A stretch of 64,000 nt of DNA from the NCBI RefSeq assembly GCF_006636205.1, contig NZ_VIGB01000003.1, positions 806,001-870,000 on the forward strand. Direction: 5' to 3'. Under the pieces are notes generated by a model, which saw only the letters and a list, made by a program, of their open reading frames with translations, was not told the DNA's origin and did not search any database. The stretch comes from Kitasatospora acidiphila. Lineage in GTDB: Bacteria; Actinomycetota; Actinomycetes; Streptomycetales; Streptomycetaceae. Shown here in pieces: positions 6,261-47,354 of the stretch (positions are counted from its first letter, which is position 1; each line of letters starts with the position of its first letter). Made by a program: the position numbers and the translations under genes.

Positions 6261-7235
6261 ATGTCCGAGCAGAACGCCGCCGGCACCGGGCCGACCCTGG
6301 AGCCCGAGGCCCGGGCCTTCGCCGAGGCCACGGCGAACCCGCCTTACCTCTTCGACCTGGGCCCGGCCAAGGGCCGCGCGGCGGTCGACGAGGTGCAGTC
6401 CGGCGAGATCGCCAAGCCGGAGGTCGACGAGGAGTGGATCGAGGTGGCCGGCGGCCCGACCGGCCAGGTCCGGGCCCGCATCGTGCGCCCCGCCGGGGCC
6501 ACCGGCCCGCTCCCCGTCATCCTCTACATCCACGGCGCCGGCTGGGTGTTCGGCAACGCCCGCACCCACGACCGGCTGGTGCGCGAGCTGGCCGTCGGCG
6601 CGGAGGCCGCCGTCGTCTTCCCCGAGTACGACCTGTCGCCCGAGGCCCGCTACCCGGTCGCGATCGAGCAGAACTACGCCGTCGCCCGCTGGGTCGTGAC
6701 CGACGGGGCCGCCAAGGGCCTGGACGCCACCCGGCTCGCCGTCGCCGGCGACTCGGTGGGCGGCAACATGAGCGCGGCGCTCACGCTCATGGCCAAGGAG
6801 CGCGGCGACGTCCCGCTGGTGCAGCAGGTGCTGTTCTACCCGGTCACCGACGCCGCCTTCGACACCGACTCCTACCACCGGTTCGCGACCGGCTACTTCC
6901 TGCGCCGCGACGCCATGCAGTGGTTCTGGGACCAGTACACCACCGACCCCGCCCAGCGCGCCGAGATCACCGCCTCCCCGCTGCGCGCCACCGTCGAGCA
7001 GCTCACCGGGCTGCCGCCGGCGCTGGTCATCACCGGCGAGGCCGACGTGCTGCGCGACGAGGGCGAGGCGTACGCCATGAAGCTGCGTCAGGCCGGCGTT
7101 CCCGTCACCGCCGTCCGGTTCCTCGGCACGATCCACGACTTCGTGATGCTCAACGCGCTGCGTCCCTCGAAGTCCGCGCAGGGCGCCATCGTCCTCGCGA
7201 TCCAGACCCTGCGTGAGGCGCTGCACCAGGGCTGA
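6261..7235 (+). CDS. Alpha/beta hydrolase, HSL (family IV) esterase type
   Basis: A 324-residue hydrolase, paralogous to the upstream gene at 5033-6055. The triad is visible as Ser in GDSVGGN, Asp in EADVLRDEGEAYAMKL and His in LGTIHDFVML. The oxyanion segment is YIHGAGWVFGN, closer to the canonical HGGG than in its paralogue. ATG 6261 is preceded by GAGAGG at suitable distance; a GTG nine bases earlier is in frame. A 206-bp gap separates the paralogues and a strong hairpin (7256-7284) closes the unit. Possibly an ester or lactone hydrolase; specificity cannot be read from sequence. Confidence 0.88.
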   Translation: MSEQNAAGTGPTLEPEARAFAEATANPPYLFDLGPAKGRAAVDEVQSGEIAKPEVDEEWIEVAGGPTGQVRARIVRPAGATGPLPVILYIHGAGWVFGNARTHDRLVRELAVGAEAAVVFPEYDLSPEARYPVAIEQNYAVARWVVTDGAAKGLDATRLAVAGDSVGGNMSAALTLMAKERGDVPLVQQVLFYPVTDAAFDTDSYHRFATGYFLRRDAMQWFWDQYTTDPAQRAEITASPLRATVEQLTGLPPALVITGEADVLRDEGEAYAMKLRQAGVPVTAVRFLGTIHDFVMLNALRPSKSAQGAIVLAIQTLREALHQG

Positions 7236-7255
7236 CCCCCGTCGGCACCCCCGCA

Positions 7256-7284
7256 TCCGCCGCGCCGGACCCCAGCGCGGCGGA
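7256..7284 (+). terminator. Hairpin terminator after the esterase pair
   Basis: TCCGCCGCGC (7256-7265) pairs perfectly with GCGCGGCGGA (7275-7284) across a 9-nt loop. It begins 20 bp after the stop of the second esterase. No U-tract follows, as is common in high-GC actinobacteria. Confidence 0.65.
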
Positions 7285-41702: not shown

Positions 41703-43349
41703 TCAGTGGCCGCCCGCATCGATCACCTCGACGTCGAGGAAGTTGCGCTCGATCTCCTCCGCGGGCAGGGCGACGGCCAGCGCCCAGTAGTAGATGACCA
41801 GGGAGAAGCCGGTGATCAGGGCGATGTCCCACCAGAGCGGCAGGCGGCCGGTGGCCCCCTTGCCGAACTGGCCCTGCCAGGACATCAGGCCCATGCCCAC
41901 CAGGTAGACGGGGAGCCACTGGCCGGCCCGGAAGTCCATCCGCGGCGCGCCCGGCAGGTGCTTGGCGCGCGCCCAGGCCGCGTAGCCGCCGAGCAGCAGA
42001 TAGCCGATCAGGATCGAGGCGCCCAGCCGCCACAGGGTGTCCCAGCCGGACCAGTAGATGACCAGGCTGGCGATCACGAAGGCGACCGGCGAGATGATCT
42101 CGCCGGCCGGCAGGTGGTAGGAGCGCTCCAGGTCGGGGAAGCGCCGGCGCAGGACGCCGAAGGCGAGCGGCGCGCCCGCGTACATCAGCACCACGGCGGA
42201 GGTGATGAAGCCGACCAGCCGCTGCCAGCTGGGGAACGGCAGGAAGCACAGCACGCCGGCGACCCAGGCGACCACCAGGCCGAGCCACGGCACCGCGCGA
42301 CGGTCGGTGGCCTGGAGCGCCTGCGGGGCATAGCCGTTGCGGCTGAGGCCGTAGCTGATCCGGGAGCTGGAGGTGACGTAGACCAGACCGGTGCCGGCGG
42401 GCGAGATGACCGCGTCGATGTAGAGGATGGTGGCCATCCAGCCGAGTCCGATCAGGGCGGCCAGCCCGGCGAACGGGCCGCTGATGCCCTTGTAGTCGAG
42501 GTTGGCCCAGCCGCCGGCGAAGGTGGCGGCGGGCAGCGATCCGATGAAGACCACCTGGAGCATGATGTAGACGACCGAGCCGATCAGCACCGAGCCGATC
42601 ACGGCACGCGGGATGTCGCGGCGCGGGTTGCTGGACTCCCCGGCCCACTGGATCGCCTGCTCGAAGCCGAGCAGCGCGAAGATCACGCCGCTGCCGCTGA
42701 TCGCGCTGAGCACACCGCGTGCGCCGTAGGGCGCGAAGCCGTGGCTGTGGAAGTTGGCGCCGTGGAACTCGGCGCCGGCGAAGACCAGGATGGTCAGCAC
42801 CGGGACGGCGACCTTCCAGTAGGTGGCCGCGCTGTTGGTGTTGGCCAGCCATTTGACGCCGAGGAAGTTGATCGCGACGAAGATGGCGAGCAGCGCGGCG
42901 GCGACCACGAAGCCGGAGGCGGTGAGGGTCTGGTTGCTCTTCTTGAGCAGACCGTCGGCCCAAGTCCAGTGCTGGGCATAGCCGATCATCGCCTGGACCT
43001 CGATGGGCGCGGTGGCGGCGGACTGCAGCCAGGTGAACCAGCCGAAGCTCATGCCGGCGAAGCCGCCGAAGGCGTAGTGCGGATAGCGGGCGGTGCCGCC
43101 GGCCACCGGGAACAGGCCGCCGAGCTCGGCGTGCACCAGGGCGAGCAGCACGATGGCGACCGTTCCGACGCCCCAGGAGATCAGGGAAGCGGGCCCGGCT
43201 GCCCGGACCGCCTTCTCGGCGCCGAACAGCCAGCCGGATCCGATGATCGCCCCGACCGAGGCCCAGAGCAGGCCGATCATCCCGACCTCGCGGCGCAGGG
43301 CGTGGCGCCCGCCGGTCCGTCGGACCGCTCCGGGCATGGATGACGCCAT
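41703..43349 (-). CDS. APC-family amino-acid permease
   Basis: A 548-residue integral membrane protein with about 12-14 spans. The N-terminal signature of the APC superfamily, MIGLLWASVGAIIGSGWLFG, contains the G-A-I-I-G-S-G unwound TM1 motif. FALLGFEQAIQWAGESSNPR and VTSSSRISYGLSRNGYAPQA are the TM6 and loop blocks of amino-acid/H+ symporters. The C terminus (EEIERNFLDVEVIDAGGH) is cytoplasmic. ATG 43349 follows GGGGAGGAAGCC. Substrate unknown. The upstream AT-rich region carries a CTCAGCA/TGCTGAG palindrome. Confidence 0.9.
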   Translation of the reverse strand: MASSMPGAVRRTGGRHALRREVGMIGLLWASVGAIIGSGWLFGAEKAVRAAGPASLISWGVGTVAIVLLALVHAELGGLFPVAGGTARYPHYAFGGFAGMSFGWFTWLQSAATAPIEVQAMIGYAQHWTWADGLLKKSNQTLTASGFVVAAALLAIFVAINFLGVKWLANTNSAATYWKVAVPVLTILVFAGAEFHGANFHSHGFAPYGARGVLSAISGSGVIFALLGFEQAIQWAGESSNPRRDIPRAVIGSVLIGSVVYIMLQVVFIGSLPAATFAGGWANLDYKGISGPFAGLAALIGLGWMATILYIDAVISPAGTGLVYVTSSSRISYGLSRNGYAPQALQATDRRAVPWLGLVVAWVAGVLCFLPFPSWQRLVGFITSAVVLMYAGAPLAFGVLRRRFPDLERSYHLPAGEIISPVAFVIASLVIYWSGWDTLWRLGASILIGYLLLGGYAAWARAKHLPGAPRMDFRAGQWLPVYLVGMGLMSWQGQFGKGATGRLPLWWDIALITGFSLVIYYWALAVALPAEEIERNFLDVEVIDAGGH

Positions 43350-43472: not shown

Positions 43473-43639
43473 ATAAATATGAGTCAGTTTTCCGTCCACA
43501 TCCGTTGCTTTGATCGGGCCGCCCGTGCCAGGCTCGTCCTGCTCGTTCCTGCCAGGCCACGCCGTCCGCGGCCCGCTGGGCCGTGGCCGGCCGCTCGCAC
43601 ACCGCAGGGAGCCCGCTCACCACAGGGAAGGAGACCGCC

Positions 43640-43708
43640 GTGGTCAAGCACTACCTGAAGTACGCCCTGAGCACCCTCAGCGCCGCGATGTTCCTGCACA
43701 TGACCTGA
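43640..43708 (+). CDS. 22-residue peptide gene heading the adenylating-enzyme/intramembrane-protease operon
   Basis: A very short ORF with a near-ideal ribosome binding site (GGAAGGAG, six bases before GTG 43640). The product starts MVKHYLKYAL and ends AAMFLHMT: a basic N terminus (K3, H4, K7) and an amphipathic/hydrophobic helix, like a minimal signal or signalling peptide. A hairpin 20 bp downstream separates it from the ligase gene. No family is recognised. Its position before an adenylate-forming enzyme and a presenilin-like membrane protein suggests that it is the substrate or precursor of a modified peptide (inference). It could also be a leader peptide controlling the operon. Confidence 0.5.
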   Translation: MVKHYLKYALSTLSAAMFLHMT

Positions 43709-43728
43709 CCCGGTCGCCGTGCCAGGCC

Positions 43729-43768
43729 CGGTCGGGCCGCGCGCCACCGCAGGGCACCGGCCCGACCG
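43729..43768 (+). terminator. Attenuator-like hairpin between the small-peptide gene and the ligase gene
   Basis: CGGTCGGGCC (43729-43738) and GGCCCGACCG (43759-43768) are perfect 10-bp arms with a 20-nt loop, starting 20 bp after the peptide stop and ending 85 bp before the ligase start. It would reduce read-through and give more peptide than enzyme transcript. Confidence 0.6.
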
Positions 43769-43853
43769 CTCGGACCGGCCTGGACCGGGTCCCCCGCCCG
43801 GCCCAGGCCATCCCGCGCCCGCAGGCGAAGAGCATCTCTGTGGAGAGGACACC

Positions 43854-45329
43854 GTGTTCGCCAGCGCACTGAGTCAACTGCGGTATGCCACCGCCGTGTT
43901 GCGAAACGGTCCGATCCGACCGCGGGACCTCGACCGGATCGCCCGCGAACTGCTAGCCACCCTCGCCGAGTTCGGCGAACCGGGCGACGACACCGCGCTG
44001 CTGCCCGGCCAGCGGGCGGCCGTCGACCCGGCGGTGCGCCGCACCATCACCACCCGCAGCCTGCGGGCCACCGCCCGGGCCGCGGTCCGGCACACCGCCT
44101 ACTACCGCCAGGTCTTCGACCAGTTGGGGCTCAACCCGGCCGCCCTCGACCTGGCCGGCTGGTCCCAGGTGCCGGTGACGCCCAAGCGCGCGCTCCGCTC
44201 GCTGCCCGCCGCCTTCGTCTCCACCGCGGCCCGGCCCGCGCTGCTGGCGCTCACCACCGGGACCACCGGCACACCCACCGGAGTCTGGTTCTCCCGCACC
44301 GAGTTGGAGCTGCTCTCCGCCCTGAGCACCATCTCGGCGGCCATCGGACTCGGTCTGCGGCCCGAGCACACCGTGGCCTACGCGGGCTGCTCGCGCGCCA
44401 CCCTGGCCCTGCTGAACTCCGAGGAGTCGGTCACCCGGATCGGCGCCGGCTTCGTCCAACTGGGCACCATCGACCCGGAGTCCGCGCTCGACCGGCTGGC
44501 CACCCCGCTCGGCCTGCCCGGCAAGGCCCCGCAGATCACCCATCTCACCACCTCCGCCTCCTACTTGGCCGCCCTGGTGGCGCAAGCCGAGCGCGGCGGC
44601 TGGCGCAGTGAGGACTTCGGGCTGCGGCTGATCAGCATCGGCGGCGAAGTGCTCTCCACGCCGCTGCGGGAGCGGGCCGCCGCCACCCTGGGCGGCCAGG
44701 TGGCCAACTCCTACTTGATGACCGAGCTGGTGCCCGCCGGCGCGGCCCCGTGCTCGCAGGGGCATCTGCACCACGGCACCGAGTTCGGCCACCTGGAGGT
44801 GCTGGATCCGCAGAGCTGGGAGCCGACCGCGCCCGGCGCCGTCGGCATGCTGGTGCACACGCCGTATGTGCCGTACCGGGAGTGCACCCTGCTGCTGCGC
44901 TACGCCACCGGCGACCTGGTCCGGCTGCCCGCCGGGCCGCTCGACTGCGAGCTGGCCGAGCTGCCGGCCACCTCGGACATCGTCGGCCGCTGGAGTGGCC
45001 CGCTCAGTGCCGTCCTGCCCACCCGGGACCTGCTCGACCTGCTGGAGGCCGAACCCGACGTGCCGCTGCCCACCAGATACGCACTGACCGACGAGCCCGG
45101 TGGCGCGGTGCTGCACGTGCTGGTCCGCCGGCTGCCGTCGGCCGCCCTGCTCGGGCGCCTGGAGGACGGCGCCACCGCCGCCGGCCTGCCGCTGGCCGCG
45201 ATCCGGCTGTACGACGACCGCGAGTCCATGCCGCCCACCGTCCCGCTCCGCGCCGATCTGCGCGAGCACGGCTTCGCGGACCTCGGCCCGTCGCCGAGCC
45301 GCCCGACCCGCCTGGCCGGCCGCTCATGA
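43854..45329 (+). CDS. Adenylate-forming enzyme, F390-synthetase/PaaK-like
   Basis: A 491-residue ATP-dependent ligase related to coenzyme F390 synthetase and phenylacetate-CoA ligase (the F390 synthetase-related clade). Landmarks: ARAAVRHTAYYRQVFDQLGL (~73-92), the adenylation P-loop ALTTGTTGTPTGVWFS (~132-147), ISIGGEVLSTPLRERAAATL, NSYLMTELV in place of the usual YG-TE motif, and LLRYATGDLVRLP near 355. The reaction is presumably activation of a carboxylate or phosphate as an adenylate; the acceptor is unknown. GTG 43854 follows GGAGAGG. The last codons overlap the start of the membrane-protein gene (ATGA), so the two are coupled. Confidence 0.82.
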   Translation: MFASALSQLRYATAVLRNGPIRPRDLDRIARELLATLAEFGEPGDDTALLPGQRAAVDPAVRRTITTRSLRATARAAVRHTAYYRQVFDQLGLNPAALDLAGWSQVPVTPKRALRSLPAAFVSTAARPALLALTTGTTGTPTGVWFSRTELELLSALSTISAAIGLGLRPEHTVAYAGCSRATLALLNSEESVTRIGAGFVQLGTIDPESALDRLATPLGLPGKAPQITHLTTSASYLAALVAQAERGGWRSEDFGLRLISIGGEVLSTPLRERAAATLGGQVANSYLMTELVPAGAAPCSQGHLHHGTEFGHLEVLDPQSWEPTAPGAVGMLVHTPYVPYRECTLLLRYATGDLVRLPAGPLDCELAELPATSDIVGRWSGPLSAVLPTRDLLDLLEAEPDVPLPTRYALTDEPGGAVLHVLVRRLPSAALLGRLEDGATAAGLPLAAIRLYDDRESMPPTVPLRADLREHGFADLGPSPSRPTRLAGRS

Positions 45330-46333
45330 ACACCACCGCCCTGGCCGCGCTCAGCGGCGTCACCGCCGTCGCTATCGCCCTCGCGCTCGGCTACCTGGCC
45401 CGGATCCGGATCCCCCGACCGCCCGTCGGCGTCCACACGGCCGGGGACGTCGCCGTGGTCTGCGTCGGTGTGGTGCTGGCCCCGCTGCTGGATCTCGCGC
45501 TGCCGACTCCCGTGGTGGTGACGGTCTTCGGCGTGGTGCTGGGCACCGCCGCGCAGTTCACCCTCGCCCCGCTGCTCGGCGGCCGCTGGGCGTGGCTGCT
45601 GGCCGCCGCCGCGGTCGGCACCACCCTCGCCCTGCACGCTTCCCCCACCGGGGTGCTCGCCGCCACCGACGCGCTGCTGCTGATCGCGGTCGTCGGGGTG
45701 GCCAACCTGTGGGTGCAGAGCGGCATGCGGGCCGCCCATGTCGCCGCGCTCGCCGCCGTGTTGGCGGTCTACGACCTGGTGGCCACCACGCTCACCCCGG
45801 TCACCCTGCGGTTCGCCGCCGAGGTGCAGGGGCAGCCGTTCGCCCCGCAACTGGCGCTCACCCGCGGCGCGCTGCCGGTCTCGCTGGGCCTGGGAGACCT
45901 GCTGCTCCTGGTGCTCTTCCCGCTCGCCGCCGCCAAGGCGTACGGCCGCCGGGCCGCACTGCTGGCCGCCGCGGTGGGGCTGGCCGTGGTCAGCGCGGTC
46001 AGCGCGCTCTTCGCAACCCACGTCCTGACCACCGGCTTTCCGCTGCTCGCCGCGCTCGGCCCGCTGATCGTGGCGCAGCAGCTGTACTGGCGGCAGCGCT
46101 GCGGGCGGGAGCGCAGCTGGGCCGAGTGGCACTCCGGCGCCCGCGAGCCCGCCCCGCCGCCGGTCAACCCGGCCGAGGCGGCGCTGCGGGCCACCGCGGC
46201 GCCCGGCCTGCCCGACGACTGCTGGCTGGCGGTGCACGACGACCGGGTGGTGGGCGTCGGCGCGACCCCGGGCCGGGCCCGCCGCGACGCCCGCCGCCTC
46301 GGTCGGACGCCGACGGCGGTGCGCCAGCGGTGA
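45326..46333 (+). CDS. Putative presenilin/SPP-like intramembrane aspartyl protease with C-terminal DUF5678-like tail
   Basis: A 335-residue protein with about eight or nine hydrophobic segments up to ~255. Two aspartates stand in protease-like contexts: VYD150LVATTLT and LGLGD191LLLLVLF, matching the YD and GLGD motifs of presenilin and signal-peptide-peptidase families. FPLLAALGPLIVAQQ (~238-252) is a possible counterpart of the PAL motif. The spacing (41 residues) is shorter than usual. The soluble C terminus (CWLAVHDDRVVGVGATPGRA) resembles small DUF5678 domains. ATG 45326 overlaps the ligase stop. The aspartate motif also occurs by chance in membrane proteins, so the activity needs structural support. 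Confidence 0.6.
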   Translation: MNTTALAALSGVTAVAIALALGYLARIRIPRPPVGVHTAGDVAVVCVGVVLAPLLDLALPTPVVVTVFGVVLGTAAQFTLAPLLGGRWAWLLAAAAVGTTLALHASPTGVLAATDALLLIAVVGVANLWVQSGMRAAHVAALAAVLAVYDLVATTLTPVTLRFAAEVQGQPFAPQLALTRGALPVSLGLGDLLLLVLFPLAAAKAYGRRAALLAAAVGLAVVSAVSALFATHVLTTGFPLLAALGPLIVAQQLYWRQRCGRERSWAEWHSGAREPAPPPVNPAEAALRATAAPGLPDDCWLAVHDDRVVGVGATPGRARRDARRLGRTPTAVRQR

Positions 46334-46340
46334 GTCGACG

Positions 46341-46763
46341 TCACGTCAGATTGTGCTCCACCAGGCTCAACAGACGCGCCAGCTCCCCCTGTTCGGCTGC
46401 CGAGAGGCCCGCCAGGGTCACCCCCTCCAGCTCGCCCCAGATCTCGCCGACCTGCTCGCGCAACGCCTGCGCCGCCGCCGTCGGCGCCACGATGACGGCG
46501 CGGCGATCGGTCGCGCTGCGGCTGCGGCGCACGAAGCCGGACTGCTCAAGCCGCTGCACCATCCTGGTCACCGTGGAGGCGTCCAGGCCCAGCTGCTCGA
46601 TCAACTCGCCCTGCGGCAGCGGCCCGTGATCCCAGAGCAGCATCATCAGCAGCTCCTGCCCGGCATGCAGACCGGAGCGGCGCAGCAACCGCTCCGCCGC
46701 GGCGCGATGCAGGCGGGAGACCCGGGCGATCGCATGACTTGTGGTGTCTCGTATGGCAGGCAC
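46341..46763 (-). CDS. MarR-family transcriptional regulator
   Basis: A 140-residue winged-helix regulator: RRSGLHAGQELLMMLLWDHG, LIEQLGLDASTVTRMVQRLE (recognition helix), SGFVRRSRSATDRRAVIVAP (wing with the DxR motif) and a C-terminal dimerisation helix. GTG 46763 lies six bases after TACAAT, an excellent -10, so the mRNA is leaderless. The dyad GATTG-TACGCC-CAATC overlapping that -10 is a probable autorepression site. It diverges from the SRPBCC gene, a likely target. Convergent with the membrane-protein gene of the small-peptide operon (7 bp apart). Confidence 0.9.
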   Translation of the reverse strand: MPAIRDTTSHAIARVSRLHRAAAERLLRRSGLHAGQELLMMLLWDHGPLPQGELIEQLGLDASTVTRMVQRLEQSGFVRRSRSATDRRAVIVAPTAAAQALREQVGEIWGELEGVTLAGLSAAEQGELARLLSLVEHNLT

Positions 46764-46907: not shown

Positions 46908-47354
46908 ATGCGCGCCATCAGTGCGAGTGTGCGAGCCAACGACCCGCAGCGCGGCGACCGGACCGCGTTGGACCGTGCGGCGATCTGGGCCGGCCTGGTC
47001 CGCAAGGCGGAGAACGCCGTGCCGTTCGTGGCCGCGATGGACGAGTGCCGGGTGCTGGAGCGGACGGCGAACGGTCTGGTCCGCGAGGTGGTCTTCCACG
47101 GCGAGCGGGTGCGCGAGACGGTGGTCTTCGAGCCCATGACCCGGGTCAGCTTCTACCGCGACGACGAGCGGGCCCGCTGGGTGATCCACAACGACATCGA
47201 GGAGGGCGCCGACGGCGAGCTGCTGCTCACCTTCCGGGCCGAGGTGGACCTCGGCGGCGGCCCCGATGAGGACGCCGTGGCGGACCGGATGCACGCGGGT
47301 TATGTGAAGGCCATCGAGACCACGCTCGCCCTCAGCCGCGAGGCGCTGGGCTGA
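46908..47354 (+). CDS. SRPBCC-fold protein (DUF1857/AtaL-like)
   Basis: A 148-residue protein with START-like features: an N-terminal strand, ALDRAAIWAGLVRKAENAVP (helix and the Trp-containing turn of DUF1857), FVAAMDECRVLERTANGLVR and a long C-terminal helix (MHAGYVKAIETTLALSREAL). SRPBCC domains bind hydrophobic ligands in a deep cavity, and AtaL-type members are poorly characterised. ATG 46908 follows AAGGGGGAG. It is divergent from marR, so expression is probably ligand-induced through that repressor. Confidence 0.83.
   Translation: MRAISASVRANDPQRGDRTALDRAAIWAGLVRKAENAVPFVAAMDECRVLERTANGLVREVVFHGERVRETVVFEPMTRVSFYRDDERARWVIHNDIEEGADGELLLTFRAEVDLGGGPDEDAVADRMHAGYVKAIETTLALSREALG

Follow-up and report, generated by a model that had tools for sequence, protein, structure and literature searches.

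The window, meaning the whole stretch of 64,000 nucleotides analysed here, contains a 22-codon ORF, predicted hairpins, a PaaK-like enzyme and a nine-helix membrane protein, in that order (Table 1). The ATG of the membrane gene overlaps the stop codon of the ligase gene as ATGA. A preliminary description of this DNA had named a small ORF with a ribosome-binding site (RBS), a hairpin, an enzyme and a membrane gene joined to it by the ATGA overlap, and all of these are indeed present. The small ORF encodes the 22 aa peptide VVKHYLKYALSTLSAAMFLHMT (GTG read as V), and its RBS ends 6 nt ahead of the start codon.

Table 1. Features of the locus (positions in the window)
Feature	Position	Strand	Basis or remarks
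AAGGAG ribosome-binding site of the peptide ORF	43628..43633	+	Sequence
Peptide gene, 22 codons + TGA	43640..43708	+	GTG at 43640, stop 43706-43708; core codons 1-18 = 43640-43693; tail codons 19-22 = 43694-43705
First predicted intergenic hairpin	43730..43767	+	Predicted fold
Second predicted hairpin	43777..43809	+	Predicted fold; weak covariation
PaaK-like adenylate-forming enzyme, 491 aa, GTG start	43854..45329	+	ORF, homology, motifs
Predicted presenilin/SPP-fold membrane protein, 335 aa	45326..46333	+	ORF, predicted model, motifs

The small ORF is a real gene. A search for such loci, as proposed in the preliminary description, found 18 with both the ligase and the membrane gene, and all 18 have a related in-frame peptide of 22-29 residues, lying 56-145 nt upstream of the ligase; the peptides of the other loci are also preceded by purine-rich stretches. 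The reading frame is thus kept in all loci found that keep the other two genes; its loss there had been named beforehand as one outcome that would refute the idea. Comparison of synonymous and nonsynonymous change, also suggested at that stage, indicates purifying selection on the peptide core (pN/pS about 0.14). The values in two lineages are 0.14 and 0.13 for the core and 1.45 and 2.17 for the tail, with the tail figures resting on 4-5 codons and the groups leaving out L004, L030 and L035; with L030 kept out of register the overall pN/pS was 0.64, and the figures used here come from the run without this locus. A chance ORF is ruled out by the in-frame presence in 18/18 loci, the co-occurrence with the membrane gene and the purifying selection on the core.

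Within the family (Streptomycetaceae), the peptide profile matches 14 of 297 sampled genomes; the nine-helix membrane gene occurs in exactly these 14, and no orphan peptide was found in the other 283 at E 0.01. The hosts found are Streptomycetaceae and Solihabitans, a genus of the family Pseudonocardiaceae. No further match was seen in 196 other genomes of the class (single-sequence query with the window protein), in 393 other genomes of the class (single-sequence query with the Solihabitans protein) or in 148 other genomes of the phylum (profile query), in samples that overlap and include family genomes, and in which part of the first-look candidates was scored for most genomes. The distribution is patchy and includes plasmid records; 115 of these have a ligase-like match, three belonging to cassettes and three others serving as PaaK-type references. 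The trio is a self-contained cassette, since the flanks differ between loci while the gene order is kept. A phage or virus origin was rejected, no relative of the membrane protein being found in viral contigs or phages.

The peptides share several features. In all 18, the 15-17 residues behind the last Lys or Arg include no Lys, Arg, Asp or Glu, and Asp and Glu are absent from the entire peptide throughout. The resulting hydrophobic segment is short (15-17 residues) and moderately hydrophobic, with a mean Kyte-Doolittle value of 0.8-2.1. A Phe is invariant, the distance from it to the stop codon varies by locus from 4 to 6 residues, and the residues behind it change fast. In a second type of peptide two tail residues, one Cys and the final Ser, are invariant. 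The rapid divergence of the tail could equally reflect a sequence of no importance.

An AlphaFold model of the membrane protein has nine membrane helices (pLDDT 81.3, pTM 0.72) and a small C-terminal domain (about 279-334). Structure matches of this predicted model are SPPL2a (Z 23.4 over 254 residues at 3.1 A), PSEN1 (Z up to 21.0) and archaeal PSH (up to 17.4), and the next unrelated row has a Z of 5.3. Presenilin, SPPL2a or PSH fill the first 12 rows of a Foldseek search with the model, each at probability 1.00; no match reached E 0.001 or better, the best being 2e-3. As in these proteins, the model places YD (Y149 D150) in helix 6, GxGD (G188-L-G-D191) at the start of helix 7 and the PAL-position proline (P239, ahead of G245-P246) at the start of helix 9. 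YD, GxGDLL and P-x5-GP are present in 18/18 membrane proteins; the PAL-position proline, likewise in all 18, is followed by LL, AM or AQ, and exact PAL occurs in none. The two aspartates, numbered correctly in the preliminary description, do not vary freely: both are kept in every member, in a predicted presenilin/SPP fold.

Sequence models alone do not support a presenilin identity. A Pfam-A scan of 15 members, with HMMER filters applied and as the sole coverage of PF04258, gave no presenilin/SPP model match at E up to 10, and PF06550 and PF01080, the models put forward earlier for this purpose, did not find the membrane gene in a whole-genome search. The best PDB match of the sequence profile was presenilin-1 at E 0.44 only, and the cassette protein differs from known presenilin/SPP chains both in its low identity (about 13-17% in structural alignments of the predicted model, and about 13-15% for the best rows of the Z-score comparison) and in its gene neighbours, which code for a peptide and a ligase. 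As PF06550 and PF01080 miss the protein, it is structure and motifs that carry the link to presenilin; of the presenilin-like protease first described, the predicted fold and the YD/GxGD motifs stand, whereas the Pfam models offer no match. The model nevertheless shows a clear presenilin/SPP fold that includes both aspartates and the proline at the PAL position.

In all 15 membrane proteins examined (helix borders from the window's model), the charge bias puts Lys and Arg across the membrane from the N-terminus, which is therefore predicted to be outside. This predicts an SPP-like topology, with the C-terminus inside. Type IV prepilin peptidases also have a GxGD motif; their aspartates are described as lying in soluble regions, and they cut outside the membrane (PMC2947513), whereas D150 and D191 are in predicted membrane helices. 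Such a peptidase is disfavoured by this motif context, and the lack of prepilin peptidases from the structure-match rows shown by itself excludes nothing.

Judged by its fold and its A3, A5 and A7 motifs, the second protein is a PaaK-type adenylate-forming enzyme of the ANL/PaaK fold. Its structural relatives include PaaK1, BT_0428, NatL2, ClxA and AjiA1 (Z 27-30.5), and TTGT(T/S)G (A3), MTE (A5) and R-x-x-T-(G/R)-D (A7) are present in 18/18 ligases. It had been introduced as F390-synthetase/PaaK-like; the PaaK half of this label holds (2.4e-20), whereas the coenzyme F390 synthetase model matches much more weakly (3.6e-5), and all of these matches are below the curated cut-offs. Compared with the three PaaK-type references and PaaK1/BT_0428 there are about 45 extra N-terminal residues, despite which the relatives 6six and 6hdw align from residue 8-10 of the ligase model on.

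Unlike its relatives, the cassette ligase has no SEGK-type A10 lysine motif (P-x4-GK). No EGK occurs within the last 90 residues in any of the 18, and the last 60 hold no Lys in 14 and one Lys in the other four, in a region where the alignment with the references is gapped. R-x-(D/L)-L-x-E is found near the C-terminus instead. The A10 lysine is described as a key, strongly conserved residue of aryl-CoA ligases (PMC8388817). The missing motif counts against ordinary adenylation by the enzyme, and the putative adenylation of the peptide is unproven.

The preliminary description had joined peptide, modifier and intramembrane protease into one pathway, a reading that is partly supported. That the peptide is the substrate is plausible, given the co-occurrence, the matching topology and the pattern of conserved core and fast tail. 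The most likely reading, to which we give an even chance, is that the peptide is the dedicated substrate of a presenilin/SPP-type protease, a cut frees a variable, pheromone-like tail, and the whole forms one portable cassette. The peptide would insert in type II orientation, so that the Lys/His-rich N-terminus stays in the cytoplasm and the C-terminus comes to lie outside; its own charges predict an orientation matching the predicted SPP-like topology of the protease. SPP/SPPL proteases are described as accepting only type II segments and as having an N-terminus that faces the lumen or the outside; tail-anchored segments with a few residues on the outer side also suit them (PMC7366577). The cassette protease, its own N-terminus outside as in SPP, would cleave the hydrophobic segment close to the invariant Phe, releasing the tail of 4-6 residues or a slightly longer C-terminal fragment, which may act as a strain-specific pheromone-like signal. 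On the cytoplasmic side the PaaK-like enzyme would activate a carboxylate and put it on the peptide (at the N-terminus or the invariant Lys), or alternatively modify the released fragment; this step, which we infer, is the least certain of the mechanism. In its favour, ClxA, a structural relative of the ligase, is described as forming amides and esters directly from the acyl-adenylate (PMC12519233). A new bacterial signalling system built on the protease and its dedicated substrate, in which the core is anchor and recognition element, the tail sets the pherotype and the A10-lysine-free enzyme installs an unseen peptide modification, can be put forward only tentatively, as somewhat doubtful.

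Parallels exist in Gram-positive peptide signalling. In streptococcal SHP/Rgg systems, a hydrophobic peptide gene of ~23 codons gives a 9-residue pheromone whose release a membrane-embedded protease assists (PMC7564271). The cassette resembles these systems and the enterococcal Eep-matured pheromones in having a short hydrophobic peptide gene and a membrane-embedded protease fold. However, Eep is a zinc metalloprotease, whereas the cassette protein has a predicted aspartyl GxGD fold; in contrast to SHP/Rgg, no receptor or PptAB-type exporter gene common to the cassette loci was seen in rough gene calls at 15 of the 18 loci, and there is an extra PaaK-like enzyme. The cassette suggests an undescribed peptide-processing, perhaps peptide-signal, pathway in Streptomyces and related bacteria, and a title-level literature search, with subscription journals largely outside it, gave no publication on such a peptide, ligase and presenilin-fold cassette among the matches listed.

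Interest in presenilin/SPP-type proteases comes from Alzheimer disease and from the turnover of membrane proteins. The archaeal homologue MCMJR1 was later crystallised as PSH. Its physiological substrates are given as unknown in the paper that described MCMJR1 (PMC2947513). Here, a predicted presenilin-fold protein missed by sequence models is found in an operon with an apparent natural substrate of 22 residues. If this is true, the cassette would offer an enzyme-substrate pair for intramembrane aspartyl proteolysis that is minimal and genetically tractable, possibly actinobacterial peptide signals of a new class, and an adenylate-forming enzyme whose textbook catalytic lysine is lost and whose chemistry may be unusual.

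Other explanations must be weighed against this. The trio could make a RiPP-like product, antimicrobial or surface-active rather than a signal, with the ligase adding an acyl or aryl group and the membrane protease removing a leader or maturing the peptide. In gene anatomy this resembles a RiPP cluster, a candidate precursor peptide gene being linked to a putative modifying enzyme; precursor, ligase and protease stand in fixed order, the conserved core is leader-like ahead of a fast-changing C-terminal tail, and among the relatives of the ligase with solved structures are the natural-product enzymes ClxA, NatL2 and AjiA1. However, the tail has just 4-6 residues, no transporter, immunity or tailoring gene common to the loci was seen (rough gene calls) and the ligase lacks the A10 lysine motif; we regard this as unlikely. 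It is decidedly unlikely that the peptide instead serves the protease-ligase pair as a small membrane subunit, tethering or activating it much as the small subunits of gamma-secretase do, with the real substrate elsewhere: although strict co-occurrence and strong core conservation suit a binding partner no less than a substrate, the peptide's own RBS and the separating hairpin suggest a dose unlike that of the enzymes, and fast C-terminal change in both lineages is less expected of a fixed subunit.

The hairpins bear on a further idea, in which the small ORF would control the downstream operon as a regulatory leader or translation-arrest peptide, with the hairpin as part of the switch. The window gap of 145 nt has two predicted hairpins, the second resembling the single strong hairpin of the short-gap loci; the gap is longer in the window, L002, L027 and L004 than in the remaining loci. 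A strong hairpin is predicted in 18/18 gaps (z -1.5 to -5.4 against mononucleotide shuffles), several of them being weak evidence, and a consensus fold of nine gaps has little covariation (compensatory change in 3 of 11 pairs, covariation term +0.3). The leader idea fits a conserved small ORF directly upstream of the operon, and gains weight because the predicted fold pairs part of the ligase RBS in several short-gap loci (e.g. L003, L023, L024 and L028). Arrest peptides, however, require exact C-terminal residues, whereas here these residues change fast and the distance from Phe to stop varies; the hairpin also lies outside the ORF, at gap lengths of 56 to 145 nt, and we hold a leader to be very unlikely. 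More improbable still is a toxin-antitoxin or defence-like element, in which a hydrophobic peptide toxin is checked by its protease or by modification. The patchy distribution with plasmid records and the size of the peptide, within the range of small membrane toxins, would suit it. Against it stand the strong core conservation and the ligase, since small-membrane-peptide toxin systems are not known to include an adenylating enzyme. When one ligase and three membrane proteins were searched with PADLOC, the outcome was one weak match (E 0.024), which speaks against this reading and led to the rejection of a known defence system.

The genes around the cassette bear on the exporter part of the first description, which had spoken of an intramembrane protease/exporter: no exporter gene belonging to the set was found. 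No conserved flanking partner, receptor or exporter common to the loci was seen in the 15/18 loci called, using a simple ORF caller that overlooked the membrane gene itself at 8 of these 15. Among the 20 flanking proteins scanned (16 of 54 flanking ORFs and four from the window), a neighbour gene of the HTH-NB-ARC-TPR type was noted at one locus, L030.

The order put forward in the preliminary description, a small ORF followed by a hairpin, a PaaK-like enzyme and a membrane protein gene joined to the enzyme by an ATGA overlap, is present at 43640-46333 of the window (host genome 8.58 Mb), the hairpin being a predicted fold. A closely related locus (91-92% protein identity) is found in Kitasatospora humi.

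Features of the cassette (peptide, ligase, putative protease) and its neighbours in the window
Feature	Position	Strand	Basis
Amino-acid permease	41703-43349	-	
Peptide ORF, 22 codons	43640-43708	+	GTG start, AAGGAG six bases upstream
Hairpins in the 145-nt peptide-ligase gap	43730-43767 and 43777-43809	+	predicted fold
PaaK-like enzyme, 491 aa	43854-45329	+	sequence
Membrane protein, 335 aa	45326-46333	+	start overlaps ligase stop as ATGA
MarR-type regulator	46344-46742	-	
AtaL-like (PF08982) protein	46911-47354	+	

Among 297 sampled family genomes, 16 contain relatives of the membrane protein, and in 14 of these the nine-helix part has the ligase in front (in one, G203, the membrane gene runs off the contig end). 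The remaining two genomes, G199 and G211, hold C-terminal pieces only, with no ligase match in their fetched regions; the piece in G199 (locus L031, around 6860-7276) is a remnant with an internal stop codon, and no peptide match was found in its fetched region either. The 14 family-genome loci, together with one from Solihabitans, two from Streptomyces plasmid records and one from an Embleya plasmid record, give 18 loci, the window included. In all 18, a related peptide of 22-29 residues is encoded directly upstream of the ligase, and the small ORF proposed as part of the set is conserved in frame in each of these loci, which keep both ligase and membrane gene. A profile of 15 peptides matched once in each of the 14 nine-helix genomes among the 297 (E 3e-12 to 3e-9), a circular result, since these same genomes supplied 14 of the 15 profile rows. 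Free of this circularity are the absence of orphan peptides from the other 283 family genomes at E 0.01, and the three independent plasmid loci, which were located through membrane-protein or ligase matches and left out of the profile. The small ORF is almost certainly a real peptide gene. The cassette is spread patchily, in 4 of the 17 genera in the family sample and on plasmid records, and no further members were found in the genome samples of class and phylum. In the annotation of NZ_CP108387.1 the ligase is a 'phenylacetate--CoA ligase family protein' and the membrane protein a 'hypothetical protein'; the peptide is absent from its gene table, which is known to be incomplete.

Comparison of synonymous and nonsynonymous change, as suggested in the preliminary description, gave pN/pS of 0.14 for codons 2-18 and 1.45 for codons 19-22 of the window-type peptides (11 loci), and 0.13 for the core and 2.17 for the tail of a second type (four loci, core KYVMGSMTAVLF), on a small base of 21 and 27 codons from related sequences with strong codon bias. 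Whole-peptide values are 0.33 and 0.44 respectively; for comparison, the ligase genes of the 11 window-type loci give 0.26 over their first 60 codons past the start. Over so few codons (four to five in the tail) a ratio above 1 does not prove positive selection. In the first type, tail positions show lower identity than core positions (permutation p 0.0025). Positions 6, 10 and 14, inside the core, are variable too. Across the 15-row alignment the only invariant residues are Lys7, which is followed by Tyr or Phe, and Phe18, and both peptide lineages have a conserved core and a fast-changing tail behind the invariant Phe. The second type has two fixed residues in its otherwise variable tail, a Cys and the final Ser; the genes of this type (loci L032, L033, L034, L035 and L055) have tails such as FSFCVS, FSNCPS, FTACIS and FSTCSAS, where the Cys and C-terminal Ser are kept.

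The membrane protein very probably has a presenilin/SPP fold, judging from its AlphaFold model (15 sequences; pLDDT 81.3, pTM 0.72). It shows nine long membrane helices; D150 lies in the sixth, and the seventh begins with GLGD. A stretch modelled with low confidence contains two-residue strand bridges at 175-176 and 187-188. VIA-align gave Z 23.4 with SPPL2a (254 residues, 3.1 A), up to 21.0 with PSEN1 and up to 17.4 with PSH, the first unrelated row scoring 5.3. The first 12 Foldseek rows were all gamma-secretase, SPPL2a or PSH (probability 1.00, E 2e-3 to 2.7e-2), with no match at E 0.001. At the sequence level, the best profile match in the PDB was presenilin-1 (E 0.44), with GLGD aligned to GLGD. 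The claimed YD150 and GLGD191 are kept: YD, GxGDLL and P-x5-GP motifs occur in 18/18 membrane proteins. The suggested models PF06550 and PF01080, run genome-wide, did not find the window gene, and a Pfam-A scan of 15 members at E up to 10 gave no presenilin, SPP or prepilin peptidase match. The putative protease forms a new branch within a known superfamily. Its C-terminal domain (about 50 residues; window 46160-46330; loci L020 and L021) stands alone at two places in G211 and is absent from several cassette members, and one alignment member has a weak DUF5678 match (E 0.21).

In 15/15 proteins Lys and Arg lie mostly on the side opposite the N-terminus (10-18 vs 1-5), and therefore an N-out, C-in orientation, that of SPP, is predicted. 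SPP/SPPL proteases are described as having N-termini toward the lumen or outside, as accepting only type II segments, whose N-terminus is in the cytosol, and as well suited by segments with few outside residues (PMC7366577). All 18 peptides have 15-17 residues free of Lys, Arg, Asp and Glu after the last Lys/Arg (His occurs in some) and lack Asp and Glu throughout; this charge pattern predicts a type II orientation with the N-terminus in the cytosol.

Of the enzyme described beforehand as F390-synthetase/PaaK-like, the PaaK-type assignment stands, through its fold (Z 30.5 with BT_0428, 30.4 with PaaK1) and A3, A5 and A7 motifs intact in 18/18, but F390 synthetase itself is a weak match. The A10 lysine is described as a key catalytic residue, highly conserved in aryl-CoA ligases (PMC8388817). 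An EGK motif near the C-terminus was found in 0/18, and the last 60 residues contain no Lys in 14 ligases and one Lys in each of the remaining four. These enzymes carry a conserved R-x-(D/L)-L-x-E instead; because PaaK references align with gaps in this part, the exact position is uncertain. With this lysine missing, adenylation itself is only putative. About 45 N-terminal residues are extra relative to three PaaK-type references, although with some structural relatives the alignment begins at model residue 8-10. One structural relative, ClxA (Z 28.1), is described as making amides and esters straight from the acyl-adenylate (PMC12519233), so acylation of the peptide is possible by analogy. 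Whether the ligase modifies the peptide at all is close to an even question, leaning slightly towards no.

We propose that a type II micro-peptide would undergo intramembrane cleavage by the SPP-like protease dedicated to it, freeing the variable C-terminal tail, and that the ligase would modify the peptide or a fragment. The peptide is probably the substrate of the linked protease; a signal role for the cassette is more tentative. The proposed mechanism resembles, by analogy, the Eep-matured SHP pheromones as described (PMC7564271). However, the protease linked here belongs to a different class, and the rough flank calls showed no receptor gene common to the loci; we therefore do not file the cassette under Eep/SHP systems. 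If the peptide does act as a pheromone, the cassette would add a new variant to peptide signalling with intramembrane maturation. Its parts belong to known folds. Among the matches listed from the open-licence PMC literature there was no arrangement of a dedicated micro-peptide, a PaaK-like enzyme without the A10 lysine and a presenilin-type protease, and to our knowledge it matches no known system.

A hairpin is predicted in the peptide-ligase gap of 18/18 loci, though its sequence differs; consensus folding of nine gaps gave little covariation. In flank clustering of 15 loci, based on rough ORF calls (in 8/15 even the membrane gene went uncalled), no gene outside the trio occurred in more than 4/15, and sharing was mainly between close relatives. 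Twenty flanking proteins were scanned (16 of 54 listed flanking ORFs and four from the window), including NAD-dependent DNA ligase, GAPDH, an IucA/IucC siderophore enzyme, an amino-acid permease and various regulators. Large regulators adjoin two of the cassettes: an HTH-NB-ARC-TPR regulator is divergent from the peptide gene of one cassette locus (L030:9235-12201), and in another an AAA_16-LuxR regulator is divergent from the cassette with a BTAD (SARP-type) regulator downstream (L004:3217-6024 and L004:8959-10773); these may be receptors, or neighbours by chance.
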